64,000 nucleotides of DNA from Pseudomonas sp. P818. GTDB taxonomy: Bacteria; Pseudomonadota; Gammaproteobacteria; Pseudomonadales; Pseudomonadaceae. Shown here piece by piece: positions 17,541 to 25,796 of the stretch. The number at the start of each line of letters is the position of its first letter. Within the stretch, counting starts at the first letter, position 1. The DNA lies in the NCBI RefSeq assembly GCF_000418555.1, contig NZ_ATKM01000007.1:1-64000 (forward strand). The letters run 5' to 3'. Position numbers and translations under genes: made by a program. The notes under the pieces are model-generated. The model searched no databases. It was not told the DNA's origin and was given only the letters and a program-made list of their open reading frames with translations.

Positions 17541-18668
17541 ATGAGCGTGCATAACGTCGTGATCAGTGGTACCGGCCTCTACACCCCGGCCAACAGCATT
17601 TCCAACGACGAGCTGGTGGCATCCTTCAATGCCTATGTACAGCAGTTCAACGCCGACAACGCCGAGGCCATCGCCCGTGGCGAGATCGAGGCGCTGAGCG
17701 AATCCAGCACGGCCTTCATCGAAAAGGCGTCGGGCATCAAGAGCCGCTTCGTCATCGACAAGGACGGCATTCTCGACCCGCAGCGCATGGTGCCGCGTAT
17801 CCCTGAGCGTTCCAACGACGAGTGGGGCATCCTCTGCGAAATGGCCGTGGGCGCCGCCAAGGAAGCGCTGCAGCGCGCCGGCAAGACCGTCGCCGATATC
17901 GATGGGGTGATCGTCGCCTGCTCGAACCTGCAGCGCGCCTATCCGGCGGTGGCCATCGAAGTGCAGGCCGCGCTGGGCATCGACGGCTGGGGCTACGACA
18001 TGAACGTGGCATGCTCCTCGGCCACCTTCGGCATCCAGGCCGCGACTACCGCGATCCAGACCGGCCAAGCCCGCGCCATCCTCATGGTCAACCCGGAAAT
18101 CTGCACCGGCCACCTCAACTTCCGCGACCGCGACAGCCACTTCATCTTCGGCGACGCCGCCACCGCGGTGATCATCGAGCGCGCCGATCTGGCCACCTCC
18201 AAGCACCAGTTCGATGTAGTCGGCACCAAGCTGCTGACCCAGTTCTCCAACAACATCCGCAACAACTTCGGCTTCCTCAACCGCGCGGCGGAAGAGGGCA
18301 TCGGCGCGCGCGACAAGCTGTTCGTGCAGGAAGGCCGCAAGGTGTTCAAGGACGTCTGCCCGATGGTCGCCGAGCTGATCGCCGCACACCTGGCGGAAAA
18401 CCAGCTCAACGTCGCAGATGTGAAGCGCTTCTGGCTGCACCAGGCCAACCTCAACATGAACCTGCTGATCGCCCGCAAGCTGCTCGGTCGCGACGCCGAG
18501 CCGCACGAGGCGCCGGTGATTCTCGACACCTACGCCAACACCAGTTCGGCCGGTTCGGTGATCGCCCTGCACAAGCATCAGGACGACCTGCCCGCCGGCA
18601 GCCTGGGTGTTCTAAGCTCCTTCGGTGCCGGTTATTCCATCGGCAGTGTAATTTTGCGCAAGCGTTGA
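17541..18668 (+). CDS. beta-ketoacyl-ACP synthase III-like enzyme (PA3286 type)
   Basis: 375-residue thiolase-fold condensing enzyme. The catalytic triad is visible: Cys158 in [10 protein letters not shown], His300 in FWLHQANLN, and Asn333 in TYANTSSAG. The gene next to an ECF sigma factor matches the PA3286-PA3285 arrangement of P. aeruginosa, where the enzyme is reported to condense beta-oxidation-derived octanoyl-CoA with malonyl-ACP and so shunt fatty-acid degradation products into synthesis. That role here is by homology. RBS AAGAGGA at 17532-17538 precedes the ATG. Confidence 0.85.
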
Positions 18669-18883: not shown

Positions 18884-19486
18884 ATGTCCGATACTGATCT
18901 GTTGGATCGTCTGCTCACCGGTGAGCAGAAGGCCTATCGCGAGCTGGTAGCTCGCTACCAGGGGGCGATGCGCGCGGTGGCCTACGCCATCGTCGGCAGT
19001 CGCCACGCCGACGAAGTGGTGCAGGATGCCTGGCTCGCCGTGGTGCGCAGCCTCAGTGGCTTCCAGGGGCGCTCCAGTCTCAAGACCTGGCTGCTGACCA
19101 TCACCGCCAATACCGCCAAGACCCGTCTCAAGCACAACCGCCGCGAGGTGCTGCTCGACGACCTGCCCGCACCCCATGGCACGGTGGGTGACGAGCGTTT
19201 CGCCGATGACGGCCACTGGCTGCTGGCGCCGCATGCCTGGCACCAGGACAGCCCCGAAGCCCTGCTCACCGAGGACGAACTGCGCCAATGCCTGGAACAC
19301 ACCCTGGCCAGCCTGTCCGAGTTGCAGGCCAGCGTGCTGGTGCTGCGCGAGCGTCAGGGCCTGGAGTTGGAGGCGATCTGTAATCTTCTCGACATCTCGC
19401 TCTCCAATGCCCGTGTGCTGCTGCACCGGGCACGCCTGAAAGTCTTTGCAACCCTGGAACATTTTGAGGAGACAGGCCAATGCTGA
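18884..19486 (+). CDS. ECF-family RNA polymerase sigma factor
   Basis: 200-residue sigma-70 family factor of the extracytoplasmic-function type. Region 2 spans about residues 20-85 (ADEVVQDAWLAVVRSL, then RSSLKTWLLTITANTAK) and region 4 about 140-190 (LSELQASVLVLRERQGLELEAICNLLDISLSNARVLLHRAR). GGGAG at 18875-18879 supports the ATG at 18884. The frame upstream is MITE sequence. It overlaps the following anti-sigma gene by 7 bases (ATGCTGA), so the two are coupled. Its position matches PA3285 of P. aeruginosa. Its target promoters are unknown. Confidence 0.9.
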   Translation: MSDTDLLDRLLTGEQKAYRELVARYQGAMRAVAYAIVGSRHADEVVQDAWLAVVRSLSGFQGRSSLKTWLLTITANTAKTRLKHNRREVLLDDLPAPHGTVGDERFADDGHWLLAPHAWHQDSPEALLTEDELRQCLEHTLASLSELQASVLVLRERQGLELEAICNLLDISLSNARVLLHRARLKVFATLEHFEETGQC

Positions 19487-19713
19487 CCTGCAAGGAATTG
19501 GTCGCTCACTCCAGCGATTATCTCGACGGCCAACTGACGCTGCGTCAACGTCTGGCCGTACGCGCGCACCTGGCCATGTGCGGCAACTGCCGGCGCTTCA
19601 TCCGCCAGATGAAACTGACCCAGGCGGTGATCCGGCAGATGCCGGATGAGGAGTTACCCGAACTCGACGCCCTGGCTGAGCGCCTGGCGCAGAGCCGGCG
19701 TAACCAGGGGTGA
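19480..19713 (+). CDS. zinc-finger (zf-HC2) anti-sigma factor
   Basis: 77-residue protein with the H-x3-C-x2-C zinc-binding anti-sigma motif (H30, C34, C37 in HLAMCGNC). It has no transmembrane segment, so it is a soluble ZAS-type anti-sigma, expected to release the sigma factor on thiol oxidation or metal stress. Its ATG lies within the last codons of the ECF gene (7-base overlap), which ensures equal synthesis. Confidence 0.8.
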   Translation: MLTCKELVAHSSDYLDGQLTLRQRLAVRAHLAMCGNCRRFIRQMKLTQAVIRQMPDEELPELDALAERLAQSRRNQG

Positions 19714-19763: not shown

Positions 19764-19813
19764 CGTAGGGTGGATGACGCTTTTTTCATCCACCGTTTGC
19801 AGTGGCTGTCCGG
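19764..19813. repeat. left direct repeat flanking the Abi island
   Basis: A 50-bp segment (CGTAGGGTGGATGACGCTTT... to TGTCCGG) with an internal GGTGGATGA...TCATCCACC inverted repeat. It is about 85 percent identical to 23073-23123. The stop codon and last few codons of the 19786 gene lie inside it. Confidence 0.65.
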
Positions 19814-20352
19814 GCTACTTGCTCGGTAACAAAAATGTTCAGCTGCGCACATAATTGCAGCCCCTCGAACCAAGTTAAAAACCCTTCAATCGGCTGATTG
19901 TTCATTTCAATTGTCAGAGTTTTATTTCGCCAGGTTAGGGGTAGCCCTTTGGGTGAGCGCAGATCCCATAGACCGTTATGCGCGATTGCATTTCGGTAAT
20001 GTCGAATAAATTGAATAGCCGATGACTCTGAAATATCAATTTTGTTAAATTTAGCGTATGCGCGAATAGCGTGATTTGAATCGATTATCATCTGCTTAAA
20101 GGAGTTGTCAACGACGCCCCTTGCAGCGCTATTGCTCAATGCGTCGTTGAATCCGATAGTGTAATTTGTACCGCGACGCTCATTCAGATTATCTTCAGAG
20201 ACAACGATGCCTCCATCTTCATGGATATTTATGTTATATCTACTAAGCTCAGATTTTGCTGGTTCTTTGGTTAAAAGCGCATACGCTCCAAGGCTAAACC
20301 AAAAACTATCACGAGCTGCTTTGAGTTGCGTGATCGTCTCCGTCGGGGTCAA
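19786..20352 (-). CDS. HEPN-motif protein of unknown family (putative RNase toxin)
   Basis: 188 residues from a TTG start at 20352 preceded by GGAGGA (20359-20364) at 6 bases. An in-frame ATG at 20394 has no such RBS. AT-rich and unlike the surrounding genes. Near the C-terminal third it has RHYRNAIAHNG, a canonical HEPN RNxxxH motif, the catalytic signature of HEPN ribonucleases. I do not recognise the exact family. The last codons run into a dispersed repeat (19764-19813), so the C-terminus may have been replaced at the island junction. It is last in a row of four minus-strand island genes that include AbiTii-like and AbiV-like proteins. Confidence 0.55.
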   Translation of the reverse strand: MTPTETITQLKAARDSFWFSLGAYALLTKEPAKSELSRYNINIHEDGGIVVSEDNLNERRGTNYTIGFNDALSNSAARGVVDNSFKQMIIDSNHAIRAYAKFNKIDISESSAIQFIRHYRNAIAHNGLWDLRSPKGLPLTWRNKTLTIEMNNQPIEGFLTWFEGLQLCAQLNIFVTEQVARTATANGG

Positions 20353-20370
20353 AGTAAGTCCTCCACGAAA

Positions 20371-20379
20371 GTCTAACGC
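20371..20379 (-). other. integron-type core site (GCGTTAGAC)
   Basis: On the minus strand GCGTTAGAC fits the attC/attI right-core consensus GTTRRRY. It sits just upstream of the RBS and TTG of the next gene, the geometry of a cassette boundary. No matching left half is visible; the region 5' to it is occupied by the inverted repeat at 20406-20460. Confidence 0.3.
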
Positions 20380-20405
20380 TTTGCTAAGCGGCAATGATTC
20401 GAAAA

Positions 20406-20485
20406 GGGGATAGATTTATTTTTAGGCTAGTGGCTCTGTGCTATAAATAAATCTGTCCCCATTTTTAATTGTCCCCATTTTTAAT
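20406..20485. repeat. inverted repeat plus tandem 16-bp repeat between island genes
   Basis: GGGGATAGATTTATTT (20406-20421) pairs with AAATAAATCTGTCCCC (20445-20460) with one mismatch. Then TGTCCCCATTTTTAAT occurs twice in perfect tandem (20454-20469 and 20470-20485). The GGGGACAGATTTATTT theme is a recurrent gammaproteobacterial element that I associate with mobile DNA. The TAA of the AbiTii-like gene lies in the second tandem copy. Confidence 0.65.
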
Positions 20486-21377
20486 TCAGAAATGCAGCTA
20501 ACTGAGCAAGCAAGCCGCTTGCTATAACGCTGCCGGTAATGCCTTCTAGCAAAGATCTAACTGTTTTCAGAGATTCCCTTACTATTACAGACTTTGGCTT
20601 AGGTGAAGCTATCTGGTGTTCAATTGTTGCGATCTCTGCGCGCAATTCCTCTTTTTCTGTTGAGTTTAACTGCAAGCCCTCTAACTGCTTTTTAAGTTTC
20701 TCAATGAAACCAGCTAGCTGGTTCAGATCCATGTTTACTGTTAGAGATTGCGTTGCATTCGGTGAATCCTGTTGCAGCTGAGAGTTTTGCATGCTGCCGA
20801 TATTATTAGTTACTTGGTATGTGACGGTATGTGCTGACTGCTTTTCTTTTTCTGTGAAACTCATTCCTTCTCCCAATACGCCTTGCGTTTCAAGTTGCAA
20901 TGCCCAATCAAGCACCCTATTTCTAACAGCGTCTAGAATTCCAATTACCTCTATATGAGGCACTAAAAGCGAAGGCTGCAAGGGAATGTCCATACGCTCC
21001 ATTAGCCAATTGGTAATGTGTTGAGGATAGGGCATATATAGACCCCCTGAACTACCCTTAGCCGCCAATTCATCTAGCTCACCAATAGCTTGAGAATTTT
21101 TGCGACTCGATAGTTGGTCCGCCATCTTTGGATCAGCAAAGTTCAATGGTTGCCACCCATGGTACGGATTCCAGATCTTTGGAGTGCCATGTATTTGTCT
21201 GTAATCCGGAATTATATCCTCGTTGCGAGGATAACCATTTAATTCATGGTTAATCCATTGTTGAATTTCTGGAATGTTTAGCTTTCGAGATATCACAAAC
21301 GCTTTTCTTAGCAGATCACTTACCCTTATATTGCGATTTAGCGAATCTCTTTGTAATTCCAAGACCAGTCCAGTCAT
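20481..21377 (-). CDS. AbiTii-domain abortive-infection protein
   Basis: 298 residues. The first 50 or so (LVLELQRDSLN... VSDLLRKAFVISRKLN... WINHELNGY) are the AbiTii domain signature, and RNRVLDWALQLE near residue 155 is the second conserved block. A linker with NNIGSMQNSQLQQ is followed by a coiled-coil (about 215-255) and a hydrophobic C-terminal tail (about 273-298) that could insert in a membrane. AbiTii proteins are associated with phage abortive infection; their biochemical activity is not settled. AGGAGG at 8 bases supports the ATG at 21377. AT-rich. Neighbours are AbiV-like and HEPN-motif genes on the same strand. Confidence 0.78.
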   Translation of the reverse strand: MTGLVLELQRDSLNRNIRVSDLLRKAFVISRKLNIPEIQQWINHELNGYPRNEDIIPDYRQIHGTPKIWNPYHGWQPLNFADPKMADQLSSRKNSQAIGELDELAAKGSSGGLYMPYPQHITNWLMERMDIPLQPSLLVPHIEVIGILDAVRNRVLDWALQLETQGVLGEGMSFTEKEKQSAHTVTYQVTNNIGSMQNSQLQQDSPNATQSLTVNMDLNQLAGFIEKLKKQLEGLQLNSTEKEELRAEIATIEHQIASPKPKSVIVRESLKTVRSLLEGITGSVIASGLLAQLAAFLN

Positions 21378-21409
21378 GTAATATCCCTCCTGATTCCATA
21401 ATGCTTGCA

Positions 21410-21440
21410 GCAGGGGTGCGACGTCAGGAGCGTCCCCTGC
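21410..21440 (-). terminator. hairpin between AbiV-like and AbiTii-like genes
   Basis: GCAGGGG (21410-21416) pairs with CCCCTGC (21434-21440) across a 17-base loop in the 72-bp spacer. It may attenuate read-through or mark a junction. There is no T-run. Confidence 0.35.
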
Positions 21441-21449
21441 CTGTCTTGG

Positions 21450-22130
21450 TTAACTGTTTTTTGCATGATGCACCTTCTTCCATTTCCGCGATTTCAATCC
21501 TGACCGGTAAGGCCAAAGAAACAAGGTGGGGTAATCCTCTTCATTGATAATATCGTCCATTTCCCAGATGCCCCAGTAACAATCATTTTTGACTATCAAA
21601 TTATGAGTTTTGATGAACTCATAATTTAGAAGGGAGATCATCTGTCTGGCTGTTTCCTTTTTTATCTTCTTCGTGGGAACCGAGACTCGGCTAGATGTGT
21701 CCACTTTTCCTTTCGAGCGCTCTAACCCTACGTACACTGCCTGCTGTTTCTGAAGCTCCAGTTTTCGCTCCTGAACCCTCGAAACGAAACTGGGCGCATA
21801 ATCAAAAATCTCTCGGCCAATAAAGGCGAACTGTTTCTCTGGATGCAGGTAGAGGAGCTTTAGCCATTCCTGTTCAAATTTTACGTGGTCGTCGTAGCCT
21901 GGCTCCCCTTTCTTATGGAAGCCTTCGTTTGTGATCGTGGCATAGTAGTAATGATCAACCCACTTCGCTTTGGCAAACTCCTCTAGCGATAGAACAGAAA
22001 GCTGGAACGCAGAAGGGTAAGATCCATGCTTGAACAGCAGTATTGAGTCTTCGTGCAGTCTCAAAGCATTACGCAGTGATTCAGCCGCTATCTTCTTAAA
22101 CTTAGATTCGCTCAGCCCGTTGATTTGCAT
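21450..22130 (-). CDS. AbiV-family (HEPN_AbiV) abortive-infection protein
   Basis: 226 residues. The N-terminal segment NALRLHEDSILLF, then SYPSAFQLSVLSLEEFAKAKW, is the AbiV signature (helices of a HEPN fold ending in LEExxKA). A further conserved piece, QAVYVGL, lies near residue 130. AbiV was described in Lactococcus as blocking phage translation. The gene is AT-rich and starts 25 bp after an attC-like element. It lies in a minus-strand row with AbiTii-like and other island genes, so phage defence is the likely role. Confidence 0.78.
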   Translation of the reverse strand: MQINGLSESKFKKIAAESLRNALRLHEDSILLFKHGSYPSAFQLSVLSLEEFAKAKWVDHYYYATITNEGFHKKGEPGYDDHVKFEQEWLKLLYLHPEKQFAFIGREIFDYAPSFVSRVQERKLELQKQQAVYVGLERSKGKVDTSSRVSVPTKKIKKETARQMISLLNYEFIKTHNLIVKNDCYWGIWEMDDIINEEDYPTLFLWPYRSGLKSRKWKKVHHAKNS

Positions 22131-22155
22131 GGGGCTCGATTACAGTTAACGATTA

Positions 22156-22231
22156 AGCTAACAAGCGAGCAAAAGCGTAGCTTTTGCGAGTCCAGTGAGC
22201 GAAGCGAACGGTGTTGAGCGCATTGTTATAA
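22156..22231 (-). other. integron attC-like recombination site
   Basis: The outer arms AGCTAACAAGCG (from 22156) and CGCATTGTTATAA (to 22231) pair as AACAA-GCG with AACAATGCG, leaving a single extrahelical T. The interior contains a strong GCAAAAGC/GCTTTTGC hairpin. This is the architecture of attC. It begins at the TAA of the 22226 gene, as cassette attC sites usually do. The core heptamers are only partly consensus (AGCTAAC and GTTATAA). Confidence 0.45.
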
Positions 22232-22870
22232 GCCATTGTGCAGAGCTTCCCATGTTGTTACACGCTCACGCACTTTCATCATTGCATTTTCTACAGATGC
22301 CGTGATTTCTTTCTGGTTTTTCTCCGCATCTTCCCAGTATTTTAGATAGCTTCCTTTTTCAAAAGGGTCTTTATACTGGTAATCAATTGATTCTGTGTGT
22401 GCAATTTTCTCGATTGATACTACAGCTTGGTAAATGTCCTCTGGATAAAACGGTCGTTTCTTCTCTCGTATAATGTAAAGGCTTCTTCCGGCCTCAAAGA
22501 ATCGCTTCAAGCGCTCGCGTTTTAATTCATCTTTTGTCAGATTAGGATCTTGGAAGTCCAATACTGGTCGCAAGCTTATGCTTGCATCTCTTAGGTCGAC
22601 TAAAAGTGCCGTAAGCTCGCTTAAAACTTCATATTCTTTTTCGTAGCGGAATCCGTATGTGCTTAGCTTTGCAGAAAGCTCTGCTTTGACTGACTCAAGC
22701 TGGCTTGCGTATTCATGCTTTACTGTTTCAATTTTGCTGGTTATGTCGGCAATGTCTTCTTTGGTGGCAAGGTTTTCACCCTTTTTCCCAAAATACTTTG
22801 GAAGAAAGCTTCCAGTAACTAAGCCGCCTACAAAGATGAAGAATGTCCAAGTTGCTGTTTCGAGGCTCAC
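22226..22870 (-). CDS. membrane-anchored coiled-coil protein, unknown function (defence-island associated)
   Basis: 214 residues. One N-terminal transmembrane segment (about 5-25, FFIFVGGLVTGSFLPKYFG) is followed by ATKEDIADITSKIETVKHEY and a long coiled-coil to about residue 95, then a helical cytoplasmic domain. I recognise the ATKEDI...IT..IE.VK pattern as a widespread uncharacterised family but know no function. It starts with GTG at 22870 with AGGAG upstream. AT-rich. The TAA is shared with an attC-like site. It is first in the minus-strand row of Abi-type genes. Confidence 0.6.
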   Translation of the reverse strand: MSLETATWTFFIFVGGLVTGSFLPKYFGKKGENLATKEDIADITSKIETVKHEYASQLESVKAELSAKLSTYGFRYEKEYEVLSELTALLVDLRDASISLRPVLDFQDPNLTKDELKRERLKRFFEAGRSLYIIREKKRPFYPEDIYQAVVSIEKIAHTESIDYQYKDPFEKGSYLKYWEDAEKNQKEITASVENAMMKVRERVTTWEALHNGL

Positions 22871-23123: not shown

Positions 23124-23205
23124 ATCGAAAGCCTCGCGCATCCTGCTTCGCTCTACCTCCTGCATCCATGCAGTCGTAGCCGCGACTGGTGGCGGGCAAA
23201 GCGCC

Positions 23206-23227
23206 CCCGGATTTCATCCGGGCTACG
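23206..23227. repeat. REP-type element (single copy)
   Basis: CCCGGATTTCATCCGGGCTACG is identical to the right arm of the pair at 30232-30253. Confidence 0.65.
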
Positions 23228-23246
23228 AAAACTTTTTTCGCCCGCT

Positions 23247-23271
23247 GTAACGCTCGCATCCCTGCCTCGTC
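23247..23271 (+). promoter_or_regulatory. ECF-sigma-type promoter of the RiPP operon
   Basis: GTAAC (23247-23251), a 16-base spacer and CGTC (23268-23271) fit the bipartite -35/-10 pattern of ECF promoters, where an AAC core in the -35 and CGT in the -10 are usual. It is placed about 55 bases upstream of the precursor ATG. No sigma70 alternative of similar quality is visible. Confidence 0.45.
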
Positions 23272-23326
23272 CATTGCTGCGAGGGCGCCAATCCGGCCCC
23301 ACATTCGAAACCGATGGAGAGATGCC

Positions 23327-23620
23327 ATGAAACAACTCAATACCCTGACTGCCACCCTGGGCGCCGCACTGCTGACTTCCATGGCATTCACTGCCCATGC
23401 CGCGAGCAACCCCTTTGCTGCGCAGGAGCTGGCCAGCGGCTACAGCCTGGCCGCTGCCGAGAAGGCGCAGGAAGGTTCCTGTGGCGAAGGCAAATGCGGT
23501 GGCGAGATGAAAGCCGACAAGGAAGGCAAGTGCGGCGAGGGCAAGTGTGGCGGCGAGAAGAAGGCCGACGCCGAGGGTAAATGCGGCGAAGGCAAGTGCG
23601 GCGGCGAGAAGAGCGAGTAA
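23327..23620 (+). CDS. hvfA: HvfA/bufferin-type Cys-rich RiPP precursor (EGKCG repeats)
   Basis: 97 residues. A Sec signal peptide (about 1-25, ending AHA) is followed by a short spacer and a C-terminal core with six EGxCG units. Cysteines at 52, 57, 69, 74, 86 and 91 form three C-x4-C pairs (EGSCGEGKCGG then two EGKCGEGKCGG blocks) separated by lysine/aspartate linkers. In the HvfABC/bufferin systems the MNIO enzyme and its partner convert such cysteines into sulfur heterocycles, and the exported peptide binds copper. It is directly upstream of the DUF692 and DUF2063 genes. The true ATG is 23327 after GGAGAG; upstream frame is repeat DNA. Confidence 0.88.
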   Translation: MKQLNTLTATLGAALLTSMAFTAHAASNPFAAQELASGYSLAAAEKAQEGSCGEGKCGGEMKADKEGKCGEGKCGGEKKADAEGKCGEGKCGGEKSE

Positions 23621-23641
23621 AGGCGAAGGGGAGGACGGATC

Positions 23642-24484
23642 ATGCACCTCGCAAACCTCACCGGCGCCGGTCTCGGCCTGCGTCGCGGGCTGCTCGCCGA
23701 GCTGATCGACGATGACGCCAGCGGCGCCGACTTTCTCGAAGTAGCGCCGGAGAACTGGATTGGTGTCGGTGGCCGGTTGGGCAAGCAGTTGCGCGCCCTG
23801 AGCGAGCGCCGGCCGTTGCTGTGCCATGGTCTGTCCCTCAATCTCGGTGGCTTCGCGCCGCTGAATCTGGAGTTGCTGCACGCCATCAAGGGCTTTCTGA
23901 ACGAGCATGGCGTGCTGGCCTACAGCGAACATCTGTCGGCCTGTGCCGACGACGGTCAGCTGTATGACCTGATGCCGTTGCCGTTCTGCGAAGAGTCGGT
24001 GGCGCGCATCGCCGAGCGCGTGCGTATCGTGCAGGACGTGCTGGAGCGGCCATTGATCATCGAGAACGTCTCGGCCTATGCGCGCCTGCCCGGCGAACTG
24101 GACGAGGCGGATTTCGTTCGCGCCGTGCTGGAGCGTGCCGACTGCCAGTTGTTGCTGGACGTCAACAACGTCTACGTCAACAGCCTGAACTTCGGCTTCG
24201 ATGCCGAGGCTTATATCGCCGCGATGCCCAGTGAGCGCATCGCCTATTTGCATGTCGCCGGGCATTACGACCAGGCGGCAGACCTGAAGATCGACACCCA
24301 CGGTGCGCCGGTGATCGACCCGGTGTGGGCGCTGCTGAGCAGCGCTTACGCGCAGCATGGCGTGCGCCCGACGCTGCTGGAGCGCGACTTCAACTTCCCG
24401 CCACTGGCCGAGCTGTATGCCGAGCTGGCGCATATCCGCAGCCTGCAACAGGCCGTGCAACCGCTGAGCAGGTACGGCACATGA
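23642..24484 (+). CDS. hvfB: DUF692 multinuclear non-heme iron oxidase (MNIO), HvfB-like
   Basis: 280-residue TIM-barrel enzyme. MNIO metal-binding motifs are visible: CHGLSLNLGG (H62), YSEHLS (E96, H97), ENVSAYA (E141, N142), LLDVNNVYVN (D173, N175, N176), HVAGH (H204, H208) and IDTHG (D218, H220). The MNIO family uses two or three irons and O2 to oxidise precursor cysteines. In the HvfB/bufferin branch this yields cysteine-derived heterocycles on EGKCG peptides. It lies 21 bp after the precursor and overlaps the DUF2063 start by ATGA, so modification enzyme and partner are coupled. Confidence 0.9.
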   Translation: MHLANLTGAGLGLRRGLLAELIDDDASGADFLEVAPENWIGVGGRLGKQLRALSERRPLLCHGLSLNLGGFAPLNLELLHAIKGFLNEHGVLAYSEHLSACADDGQLYDLMPLPFCEESVARIAERVRIVQDVLERPLIIENVSAYARLPGELDEADFVRAVLERADCQLLLDVNNVYVNSLNFGFDAEAYIAAMPSERIAYLHVAGHYDQAADLKIDTHGAPVIDPVWALLSSAYAQHGVRPTLLERDFNFPPLAELYAELAHIRSLQQAVQPLSRYGT

Positions 24485-25191
24485 GCGGCGTTCAGCAGCA
24501 GCGCGACTTCGCTGCACGTATTCGCCAGCCTGGGGCGCAGTCTTTGCTGCCGGGCATCACGGCCGAGCGCATGGCGGTCTACGAGGAGCTGTTCTTCAAC
24601 AACGTCGCCAGCCTGGTGGGCGGTGCCTTTCCGGTGCTGCGCGGCGTTCTCGGAGCCGAGCGCTGGCAGCGGTTGCTGCGCGCGTTCTTCGCCGAGCACC
24701 GGGCGAGCACGCCGTACTTTCTCGAGATCAGTCAGGAATTCATTGCCTGGCTGCAGCAGGGTTATCGCGCCGAGCCTGATGACCCTACGTTCATGCTGGA
24801 GCTGGCCCATTACGAGTGGGTCGAGCTGGCGCTGGATGTCAGCGACGCGCAGTTGCCCGAGCACGGCTGGTCGCCACTGGCCTGGCCGCTGGCCTATCGC
24901 CGGCCGGTGCAGAGGATCGGTGCCGATCATTGCCCCATGCAGCCACCGGCCGAGCCGACCTGCCTGCTGGTCTGGCGTGACCGCCAGGATCAGGTGCGCT
25001 TCATGCAGCTGGCGCCGTTCGCCTATCAGCTGGCGTTGCGGCTGCAGGCCGGCGAGCCGTCTGGGCAGGCGCTACAGGCGCTGGCCATCGAGCACGGCCT
25101 GGCTGCCGAGCAGCATTACTTCACCAACGCCCGCGCGCTGCTGGATGACTGGCAGGCGCGCGATATCTGGTTTCCCTATTTCGAGGACTGA
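24481..25191 (+). CDS. hvfC: DUF2063 RiPP-recognition partner protein, HvfC-like
   Basis: 236 residues. The N-terminal DUF2063 domain (about 5-100) is recognisable from QRDFAARIRQP, RMAVYEELFFNNVASLVGGAFPVLRGVLG and the following RWQRLLRAFF segment. In HvfABC and bufferin pathways this protein binds the precursor and forms a complex with the MNIO that is required for catalysis. The start overlaps the MNIO stop (ATGA), so the longer frame from 24325 is not used. Confidence 0.87.
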   Translation: MSGVQQQRDFAARIRQPGAQSLLPGITAERMAVYEELFFNNVASLVGGAFPVLRGVLGAERWQRLLRAFFAEHRASTPYFLEISQEFIAWLQQGYRAEPDDPTFMLELAHYEWVELALDVSDAQLPEHGWSPLAWPLAYRRPVQRIGADHCPMQPPAEPTCLLVWRDRQDQVRFMQLAPFAYQLALRLQAGEPSGQALQALAIEHGLAAEQHYFTNARALLDDWQARDIWFPYFED

Positions 25192-25196
25192 CCACC

Positions 25197-25796
25197 ATGA
25201 TCACTTTGCTCAATCGCTTCCAGGACGCGCTGGAGGCTACCCGGCGCCTGGATTTTCTCGGCCCGCTGCTGCTGCGCCTGTATCTGGTGCCGGTGTTCTG
25301 GATGGCCGGCACGCAGAAGCTCAAGGACATCGACGCTACTGCCGCCTGGTTCGGCAATCCGGATTGGGGGCTCGGCCTGCCGTTTCCCGAGCTGCTGGCC
25401 TGGGCAGCGGCGCTGACCGAGGCTGGTGGCGCCATTCTGCTGCTGTTCGGCTTTGCCGTGCGCTGGATCAGCATCCCGCTGATCGTCACCATGCTGGTGG
25501 CCATCTTCGCCGTGCACTGGCCTTATGGCTGGCAGGCGATTGCCGACCCGTCCGCGCCGTTCGCCAACGAGCGCGTGCTGGCGGCGGCGGAGAAACTCGA
25601 GCGGGCGCGCAGCATTCTGCGTGAGCACGGCAATTACGACTGGCTGACCGCCAGTGGCAGGTTCGTGGTGCTGAACAACGGCATCGAGTTCGCCGCCACC
25701 TACCTGGTGATGCTGGTGGCGTTGTTCTTCAGCGGGGCAGGGCGCTGGTTGAGCATCGATTACTGGCTCGCGCGACGTTTCAGAATGTCCCGCTAA
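25197..25796 (+). CDS. DoxX-family membrane protein of the RiPP operon
   Basis: 199 residues with about four transmembrane segments of the DoxX type (LLLRLYLVPVFWMAGTQKL, then EAGGAILLLFGFAVRW and a C-terminal pair). DoxX proteins commonly close MNIO/DUF2063 operons; a role in redox handling or membrane export is suspected but not proven. It starts 5 bp after the DUF2063 stop. The 3' end overlaps the convergent AraC gene by 4 bp. Confidence 0.85.
   Translation: MITLLNRFQDALEATRRLDFLGPLLLRLYLVPVFWMAGTQKLKDIDATAAWFGNPDWGLGLPFPELLAWAAALTEAGGAILLLFGFAVRWISIPLIVTMLVAIFAVHWPYGWQAIADPSAPFANERVLAAAEKLERARSILREHGNYDWLTASGRFVVLNNGIEFAATYLVMLVALFFSGAGRWLSIDYWLARRFRMSR

Follow-up and report, generated by a model that had tools for sequence, protein, structure and literature searches.

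The window analysed here, a 64,000-nucleotide stretch of Pseudomonas sp. P818 (contig NZ_ATKM01000007.1, positions 1 to 64,000), carries a four-gene operon, hvfABCX, whose product is very probably a captophorin of the oxazolin/fontiphorin kind and whose transcription we propose to proceed from an extracytoplasmic function (ECF)-type promoter via a nearby σ factor. In a more specific form, an EGKCG captophorin operon of one Pseudomonas lineage would be switched on by a neighbouring ECF σ factor (PA3285/ECF293-like), kept under a soluble zinc-finger anti-σ factor, via a TGTAAC-N16-CGTCTA promoter that has very few good matches elsewhere in the genome; for this form we see the scales as level. 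As a member of its class the operon is unremarkable; its regulatory link is put forward as a testable proposal. Both the promoter and the σ/anti-σ pair are additions to an earlier note that described the operon from the bare sequence.

The earlier note had read the locus as four tightly packed genes for a precursor, a DUF692 multinuclear non-heme iron-dependent oxidative enzyme (MNIO), a DUF2063 protein and a DoxX protein. Pfam and NCBIfam searches confirmed all four families: the genes code for a putatively exported precursor with six cysteines, an MNIO/DUF692 enzyme, its DUF2063 partner and a membrane protein of DoxX type. The hvfB product matched PF05114 (MbnB_TglH_ChrH) with E=2.5e-97 and scored 406.1 bits with the HvfB equivalog NF003818 (cut-off 360). 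In the hvfC product, DUF2063 (E=1.4e-23) and NGO1945_C (E=1.6e-24) were recognised, the HvfC model NF050145 gave 268 bits against a cut-off of 142, and PDB 3DEE was found as a relative (E=7e-13). The hvfX product matched DoxX (PF07681, E=2.5e-23) and the HvfX model NF050144 (235 bits, cut-off 80) and contains three hydrophobic segments according to a simple hydropathy scan. The genes are separated by 21 bp (hvfA/hvfB) and 5 bp (hvfC/hvfX), and the DUF2063 partner gene adjoins the MNIO gene with the 4-base start/stop overlap already noticed (ATG/TGA at 24481). Genome searches returned a single MNIO, a single EGKCG precursor and a single HvfX above cut-off. Of 143 genomes of the class, 95 have an MNIO, as do 43 of 57 relatives; EGKCG precursors are common, being present in 81 of 199 genus genomes. 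P. chengduensis is a close relative of the window genome (MNIO identity 98%).

The cysteines of HvfA were found where they had been placed (positions 52, 57, 69, 74, 86 and 91). They do lie in six EGxCG units, but the description of the precursor as a six-cysteine EGKCG peptide holds for five units only, as the first one is EGSCG. Judged by eye, the N-terminus resembles a signal peptide and ends ...AHA-AS. The KCGExKCG_twice model NF050137 recognised HvfA well above its cut-off (67.8 versus 19.5 bits, E=4.5e-19). At the DNA level, hvfA contains a 51-bp tandem repeat corresponding to 17 codons. In a comparison with five near relatives whose precursors have the same length, synonymous/non-synonymous codon differences amounted to 9/3, 8/1, 13/1, 14/2 and 2/3; hence they are mostly synonymous in four relatives, not in the fifth. 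The number of EGxCG units differs among relatives, with five cysteines in L145 and seven in L146, which suggests that repeat units are gained and lost.

About 2,000 'Buf_EGKCG/oxazolin' precursors have been described, one type of which consists of 17-residue repeats with two EGKCG motifs each, and their clusters comprise mostly precursor, MNIO, DUF2063 and DoxX genes (PMC12452194). Because the 17-codon repeat and the gene set of the window fit this description, the operon can, on sequence grounds, be counted as a new member among the published oxazolin/fontiphorin ('captophorin') systems. Two properties of the precursor count against this assignment. The narrow HvfA equivalog NF050188 gave 58.7 bits and thus stayed below its cut-off of 95, so that a search of the precursor families, as the earlier note had advised, places HvfA in the wider EGKCG family only and not in the equivalog. 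Moreover, the EGSCG of the first unit is not among the FonBC-tested motifs given in the available text of PMC13097082.

Upstream of hvfA, an alignment of the window with 17 Pseudomonas relatives, which had been gathered by MNIO or precursor and irrespective of any promoter, revealed one sharp block, TGTAA(C/T), 16 bases and NGTC(C/T/A)A(G/T)TG, in surroundings that are poorly conserved among the more distant relatives. In the window and in 17/17 relatives, its core stands 73-85 bp ahead of hvfA. An AAC in the first box, a spacing of 16 bp and a CGTC in the second box make up the typical layout of an ECF promoter. Scans for σ70 promoters and terminators at the hvf operon gave nothing beyond chance. 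The left border of the operon had been set at 23247, which is not a gene start and falls inside this promoter element, TGTAAC-N16-CGTC(C/T)A at 23246. Seven hvf loci were added later; the four from genomes known to match all have the core, as does one of the three others. Overall, the core was present in 23 of 25 regions compared with 3 of 5000 dinucleotide shuffles, a figure that measures rarity and is not an independent test, because 18 of these regions (the window and 17 relatives) had served to define the core. Among 13 representatives, which had been selected for TGTAA and GTC so that only further letters are informative, the A, T and G after GTC were invariant as well, though not required, and the sequence ahead of the first box is rich in A.

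For a wider comparison, precursors of 147 loci were typed by simple motif patterns as Lys-Cys (76), Cys-Lys (32) or untyped (39). Of the 17 clade relatives, 16 have a related promoter pattern, compared with none of 59 other Lys-Cys loci, 2/39 untyped and 1/32 Cys-Lys loci. In the window genome the zero-mismatch element occurs only before hvfA. Just upstream of the promoter, at 23203-23227, lies an inverted-repeat-like sequence, CCCCCGGATTTCATCCGGGCTACG, which recurs with small changes in near relatives and is possibly a repetitive extragenic palindromic (REP)-like element.

The second-best match in the genome, with two mismatches, is located on the minus strand before a glutamate-cysteine ligase gene (C4:41810-41840; L187 4811-4841). 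It lies about 107 bp from the likely TTG start of the ligase gene, and its first bases overlap the end of the preceding thioesterase gene. This site marks a possible second target. The remaining two sites with two mismatches fall within open frames.

The proposed regulator is encoded upstream of the operon, next to the gene of its putative anti-σ factor. With σ70 regions 2 and 4 in the one protein and the pattern C/H-X23-26-H-X3-C-X2-C in the other, the two correspond to an ECF σ factor and a zinc-binding anti-σ (ZAS) protein. The anti-σ residues C4-X25-H30-X3-C34-X2-C37 agree with the ZAS motif given in PMC7907618. In all 30 best-scoring σ loci of the 151 genomes with a match, the σ gene is overlapped in this way by the gene of a small HxxxCxxC protein.

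The arrangement of these genes was compared between the 17 hvf loci, chosen irrespective of σ, and the seven later ones, several of which were chosen for proximity of σ gene and operon. The ketoacyl synthase gene, σ gene, anti-σ gene, promoter and hvfABCX are contiguous in seven of the 17 loci (L036-L039, L041-L043). Five others (L033, L142-L145) resemble the window in having 2.3-4.4 kb of other DNA between anti-σ gene and promoter, and for the last five (L032, truncated by a contig edge, L034, L035, L040 and L146) the DNA covered contains no σ gene. Of the later loci, four are contiguous (L258, L259, L265, L267), two are contiguous with an altered second box (L263, L264) and one has no σ gene in the stretch (L260). 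In the genomes of L146 and L260 (G118, G154) the σ pair is present elsewhere.

Such control has a precedent. In Haemophilus influenzae, induction of the DoxX/UPF0276/DUF2063 operon by hypochlorous acid (HOCl) is lost without rpoE2, and RpoE2 is held by HrsE, a ZAS anti-σ factor of 67 amino acids (PMC7907618). Control of the corresponding DoxX cluster of Neisseria by SigE is cited in the same paper. Since hvf in H. influenzae is controlled by such a pair (PMC7907618), we propose equal control for the window; synteny and this precedent together suggest that the window σ factor would read the hvfA promoter. In the literature searched, with subscription papers and the ECF classification lying outside it, no statement of a link between this σ factor and hvf in Pseudomonas was found.

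In P. aeruginosa PA14, an operon of fabH3, an ECF gene and a putative anti-σ gene (PA14_21550/21560) is induced by SigX over-expression, and its ECF σ factor does not activate fatty-acid genes (PMC3875570). PA3285 has been assigned to ECF293 and is predicted to be under PvdS (PMC8999054). Judged by gene order, the σ/anti-σ pair of the window is presumably orthologous to PA14_21550/PA14_21560, and PA14_21550 is presumably PA3285. If so, the statement that PA3285 has no anti-σ factor (PMC3832394) conflicts with the operon given in PMC3875570.

Several results weigh against control by the neighbouring σ factor. First, six of the 24 hvf loci have no σ gene in the stretch, one of them ending at a contig edge. 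Second, 151 of 249 genus genomes have the σ gene, but only 11 of 249 the strict promoter before hvfA; being far commoner than the promoter, the σ factor must have other duties in many species. Third, a search of the 3.2 kb surrounding the σ gene itself (L196) gave no promoter site, even when two mismatches were allowed. Fourth, the hvfA genes of L263 and L264 have an altered second box, in which TGTAAC and TCTATTG are kept at equal spacing and GTC is lost. Finally, the sites are not enriched in number. The window genome contains four sites at up to two mismatches versus 50 for a reversed control pattern, the strict pattern has one site each in 19 of 249 genus genomes versus 38 control hits, and TGTAAC-N16-CGTC occurs 3, 5 and 4 times in three genomes versus 13, 18 and 13 control sites. 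Within the window alone, a match with at most one mismatch appeared in 17 of 100 shuffles, which is not significant. As hit counts do not exceed the control, it is position and not number that carries weight: 11 of the 19 strict sites stand before hvfA, whereas the other 8 fall within long open frames of either strand and were set aside. In the three genomes the hvfA site is the only TGTAAC-N16-CGTC site recognised in all of them; one further site, C5:970239, sits between two same-strand frames.

These observations lend substance to another explanation, namely that a different ECF σ factor such as SigX reads the element, or a conventional regulator binds to it, and that the nearby pair is a mere neighbour. 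The pair is common in genomes without the promoter and unlinked from hvf in some genomes that have both, SigX over-expression induces the fabH3-ECF-anti-σ operon of PA14 (PMC3875570), and 19 of 22 σ region-4 matches in the window genome exceed the cut-off. Of the 22 σ-factor loci of this genome, five have sites with two mismatches and none has sites with fewer. On the other hand, the σ gene was found in all 11 genomes with a strict hvfA promoter against a background of 151/249, although this co-occurrence gives weak support because the species are related. It is contiguous with hvf in 7/17 loci that were collected irrespective of it, and an element occurring once per genome in its strict form is ill-suited to a broad regulon. 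Thus, reading by another regulator seems a serious contender that we are slightly inclined to doubt.

Under the proposed mechanism, transcription would start at the ECF-type promoter, read by the σ factor once the anti-σ protein releases it. HvfA would be made with a Sec signal and held by HvfC, which would also enable the mixed-valent di-iron centre of HvfB. HvfB would then oxidise the EGxCG cysteines to 5-thiooxazoles, with a predicted loss of 4 Da each at up to six positions. After export the modified product would bind Cu(I) in the periplasm and serve as a sink that takes up loose copper when the envelope is stressed or oxidants act, with HvfX as a helper in the membrane. The predicted product therefore carries up to six 5-thiooxazoles and binds Cu(I); we infer this chemistry, as well as export, copper binding and physiological role, from characterised relatives. 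HvfA of H. influenzae, with three AEGKCGEGKCG motifs and six modified cysteines, receives six 5-thiooxazoles from HvfB together with its required partner HvfC, and the enzyme has a mixed-valent di-iron centre (PMC13419390). The 5-thiooxazole was established by nuclear magnetic resonance in fontiphorin, oxazolin and gonophorin, up to four bound Cu were seen by native mass spectrometry, and the name captophorins was proposed for a class that spans tens of thousands of MNIOs (PMC13097082). The earlier note had offered the exact cysteine chemistry as conjecture; what this branch would be expected to make is now published as 5-thiooxazole, with -4 Da per Lys-Cys motif in fontiphorin (PMC13097082).

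The same note called copper the established ligand, which holds for purified relatives but not for copper as the inducing signal (PMC12538549, PMC7907618), and the in vivo role of copper for EGKCG peptides is unsettled (PMC12538549, PMC13097082). The operon might serve another purpose, either to defend the envelope against oxidants such as HOCl or to respond when zinc is scarce; metal binding would then be secondary. PA3281-PA3284 are putatively the hvf genes of P. aeruginosa. A zinc paper on this species tabulates PA3282, PA3283 and PA3284 with values of 4.1, 5.0 and 5.0 (PMC4542158). Further, the H. influenzae hvf genes are HOCl-induced through RpoE2 (PMC7907618), a zinc-finger anti-σ factor could report oxidation or zinc loss, and the EGKCG proteins of Microbulbifer were undetected after copper addition, which also speaks against the copper-sink role proposed above (PMC12538549). 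Against this stands that characterised EGKCG products bind copper, as far as their descriptions were available. We consider a role other than copper possible but rather doubtful.

The assignment of HvfB to the EGKCG branch was examined with residues and a tree. The metal motifs of the hvfB product, all of which had been called recognisable, align with PDB 3BWW at H62, H97, E141, N175, H204, D218, H220 and E247. For HvfB of H. influenzae, N175, D242 and H244 are named as ligands (PMC13419390) and have counterparts among these positions; the other positions are putative ligands. In FonB, Arg15, Arg16, Asp249 and Phe250 are tied to EGKCG recognition and catalysis (PMC13097082); R14-R15 and D249-F250 of the window HvfB match these. 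The corresponding motif ERDFN was present in 76/76 Lys-Cys loci, 0/32 Cys-Lys loci and 22/39 untyped loci. Among the Cys-Lys loci, 16 have ERDDN, one ERDAN, one ERDSN and 14 no match to the pattern; the remaining untyped loci have ERDDN (3), ERDAN (1) or none (13). The RR pair was found in 58 of 76 Lys-Cys loci, with other pairs in 2 and the pattern unmatched in 16.

An alignment and FastTree tree of the window enzyme and the 147 MNIOs of loci L032-L178 (148 rows, with L001-L031 left out) separated, with support 100, a group of 99 rows, made up of the window, all 76 Lys-Cys and 22 untyped enzymes, from 49 rows with all 32 Cys-Lys and 17 untyped enzymes. Within its group the window HvfB belongs to an 18-row Pseudomonas clade (support 100). 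The hvfB product thus belongs to the EGKCG (Lys-Cys) group, separate from the Cys-Lys enzymes, and not outside the enzymes of EGKCG precursors, the placement that had been left to a check. Of the label 'HvfABC/bufferin-type' the first half is upheld by the HvfB score; the second, in the strict sense, is not. That the operon encodes a bufferin proper (Buf1/DUF2282 or Buf2/Cys-Lys) is very improbable, for although the bufABC + doxX gene order is identical, the MNIO is closely related and published similarity networks fail to separate bufferin from EGKCG enzymes up to a high threshold (PMC12452194), the BufB model reached only 254.8 bits (cut-off 310) while HvfB passed its own, DUF2282 had zero matches in the genome search, the precursor motif is Lys-Cys, residue 250 is Phe instead of Asp, and the enzyme lies on the opposite side from the Cys-Lys enzymes in a tree built without a labelled Buf1 enzyme or MbnB outgroup.

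A second set of Pseudomonas MNIOs, mostly with EF-hand-fused precursors, sits among Lysobacteraceae, apart from the window clade, which suggests a separate acquisition. This second precursor type, fused to EF-hand-like motifs, was seen by eye in 24 of the 30 best-scoring genus precursor loci, and no HvfX was found nearby where such loci were checked (L002, L003, L147, L148, L067, L069, L104). An association between EF-hand fusion, assigned by pattern, and HvfX (present in 1/17 fused versus 33/60 unfused among 77 Lys-Cys rows) was considered and dropped, as the tree-based test had only four supported pairs and no power. Four Methylophaga loci (L045, L046, L047, L049) have HvfB-group MNIO and DUF2063 genes, upstream of which an EGKCG precursor was not recognised; in L045 and L047 a TGTAAC-N16-CGTC match lies 65-74 bp before the matched MNIO stretch, and the precursor is perhaps encoded elsewhere.

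Between the anti-σ gene and the promoter, the window carries an insert with abortive-infection-type genes and two unassigned ORFs (Table 1). At the same spot, relatives have genes for TIR-TPR-SEC-C (L033), a transposase (L142), NERD-SEC-C (L143), DUF3916 and a YcxB-like protein (L144) and DUF6037 (L145), based on a scan of 10 of the 20 open reading frames (ORFs) listed there. The differing contents in the window and five close relatives point to a variable insertion spot, which looks like one that often takes up defence-type genes.

Table 1. Genes and elements of the hvf region in the window
Feature	Position	Strand	Description	Evidence
β-ketoacyl-ACP synthase III gene (fabH3-like)	17541-18668	+	synteny marker upstream of σ gene	NF005703, 673.5 bits
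ECF σ gene	18884-19486	+	proposed regulator; start 18884 inferred, open frame from 18806	Sigma70_r2 1.9e-14, r4_2 2e-9
Anti-σ gene	19480-19713	+	77-aa zinc-finger (zf-HC2) protein; overlaps σ gene	PF13490, E=1.5e-11
Insert	19786-22870	-	202-aa ORF, AbiTii, AbiV, 214-aa ORF	PF18864 4.6e-47, PF18728 2.9e-25; PADLOC AbiTii + AbiV
Putative ECF-type promoter element	23246-23276	+	TGTAAC-N16-CGTCCATTG; 81 bp before hvfA start codon	
hvfA	23327-23620	+	97-aa precursor, signal-peptide-like N-terminus, six EGxCG units	NF050137 over cut-off
hvfB	23642-24484	+	280-aa MNIO (DUF692/PF05114), predicted 5-thiooxazole installer	NF003818, tree, residues
hvfC	24481-25191	+	236-aa DUF2063 + NGO1945_C partner protein (PME1)	NF050145
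hvfX	25197-25796	+	199-aa DoxX-family membrane protein	PF07681, NF050144

If control by the neighbouring σ factor holds true, peptide output would be set by oxidation of, or zinc loss from, the anti-σ factor and not by a copper sensor, and hvf would be the first target operon assigned to this σ factor. Given the site ahead of the glutamate-cysteine ligase gene, a small thiol/metal-stress regulon is possible, and the wiring would have outlasted the arrival of varying defence genes in the DNA that separates regulator and operon. EGKCG proteins went undetected under copper in Microbulbifer and the operon is induced by HOCl in H. influenzae; the promoter and σ/anti-σ pair make the switching of EGKCG clusters directly testable in an environmental Pseudomonas.

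Among known systems, HvfABCX/oxazolin of H. influenzae (PMC13419390) shares with the window the four protein families, six cysteines in three double EGxCG repeats, the signal peptide and a DUF2063 partner that is required there. The window differs in its host, in a precursor below the HvfA cut-off and in the EGSCG of the first unit. Its regulator pair lies near the operon, whereas rpoE2 of H. influenzae is located by msrAB (PMC7907618). Both regulator pairs consist of an ECF σ factor and a small anti-σ factor, and the one of H. influenzae controls the hvf operon; RpoE2/HrsE are related to ECF group 13 (PMC7907618), whereas PA3285 is placed in ECF293 (PMC8999054). The PA14_21550/PA14_21560 pair has the same fabH3-ECF-anti-σ order as the window (PMC3875570). 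Fontiphorin FonABC of Fontimonas thermophila (PMC13097082) has EGKCG repeats, the RR and DF residues and the predicted 5-thiooxazole in common with the window, but fon consists of A, B and C genes only, with seven modified sites, compared with six sites plus a DoxX gene here. Bulbicupramide MmrABC of Microbulbifer (PMC12538549) likewise combines an EGKCG precursor of five to eight cysteines with an MNIO and a DUF2063 protein; it is described as mmrA-C, and no HvfX relative was found in the Microbulbifer loci L051 and L079. The bufferins Buf1 and Buf2 (PMC12452194) are also exported, MNIO-modified, copper-binding ribosomally synthesized and post-translationally modified peptides with this gene order, with precursors of DUF2282 or Cys-Lys type in contrast to the Lys-Cys precursor of the window. 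Buf1 clusters are reported to contain σ and NrsF genes (PMC12452194), whereas the putative anti-σ factor of the window is a zinc-finger protein.

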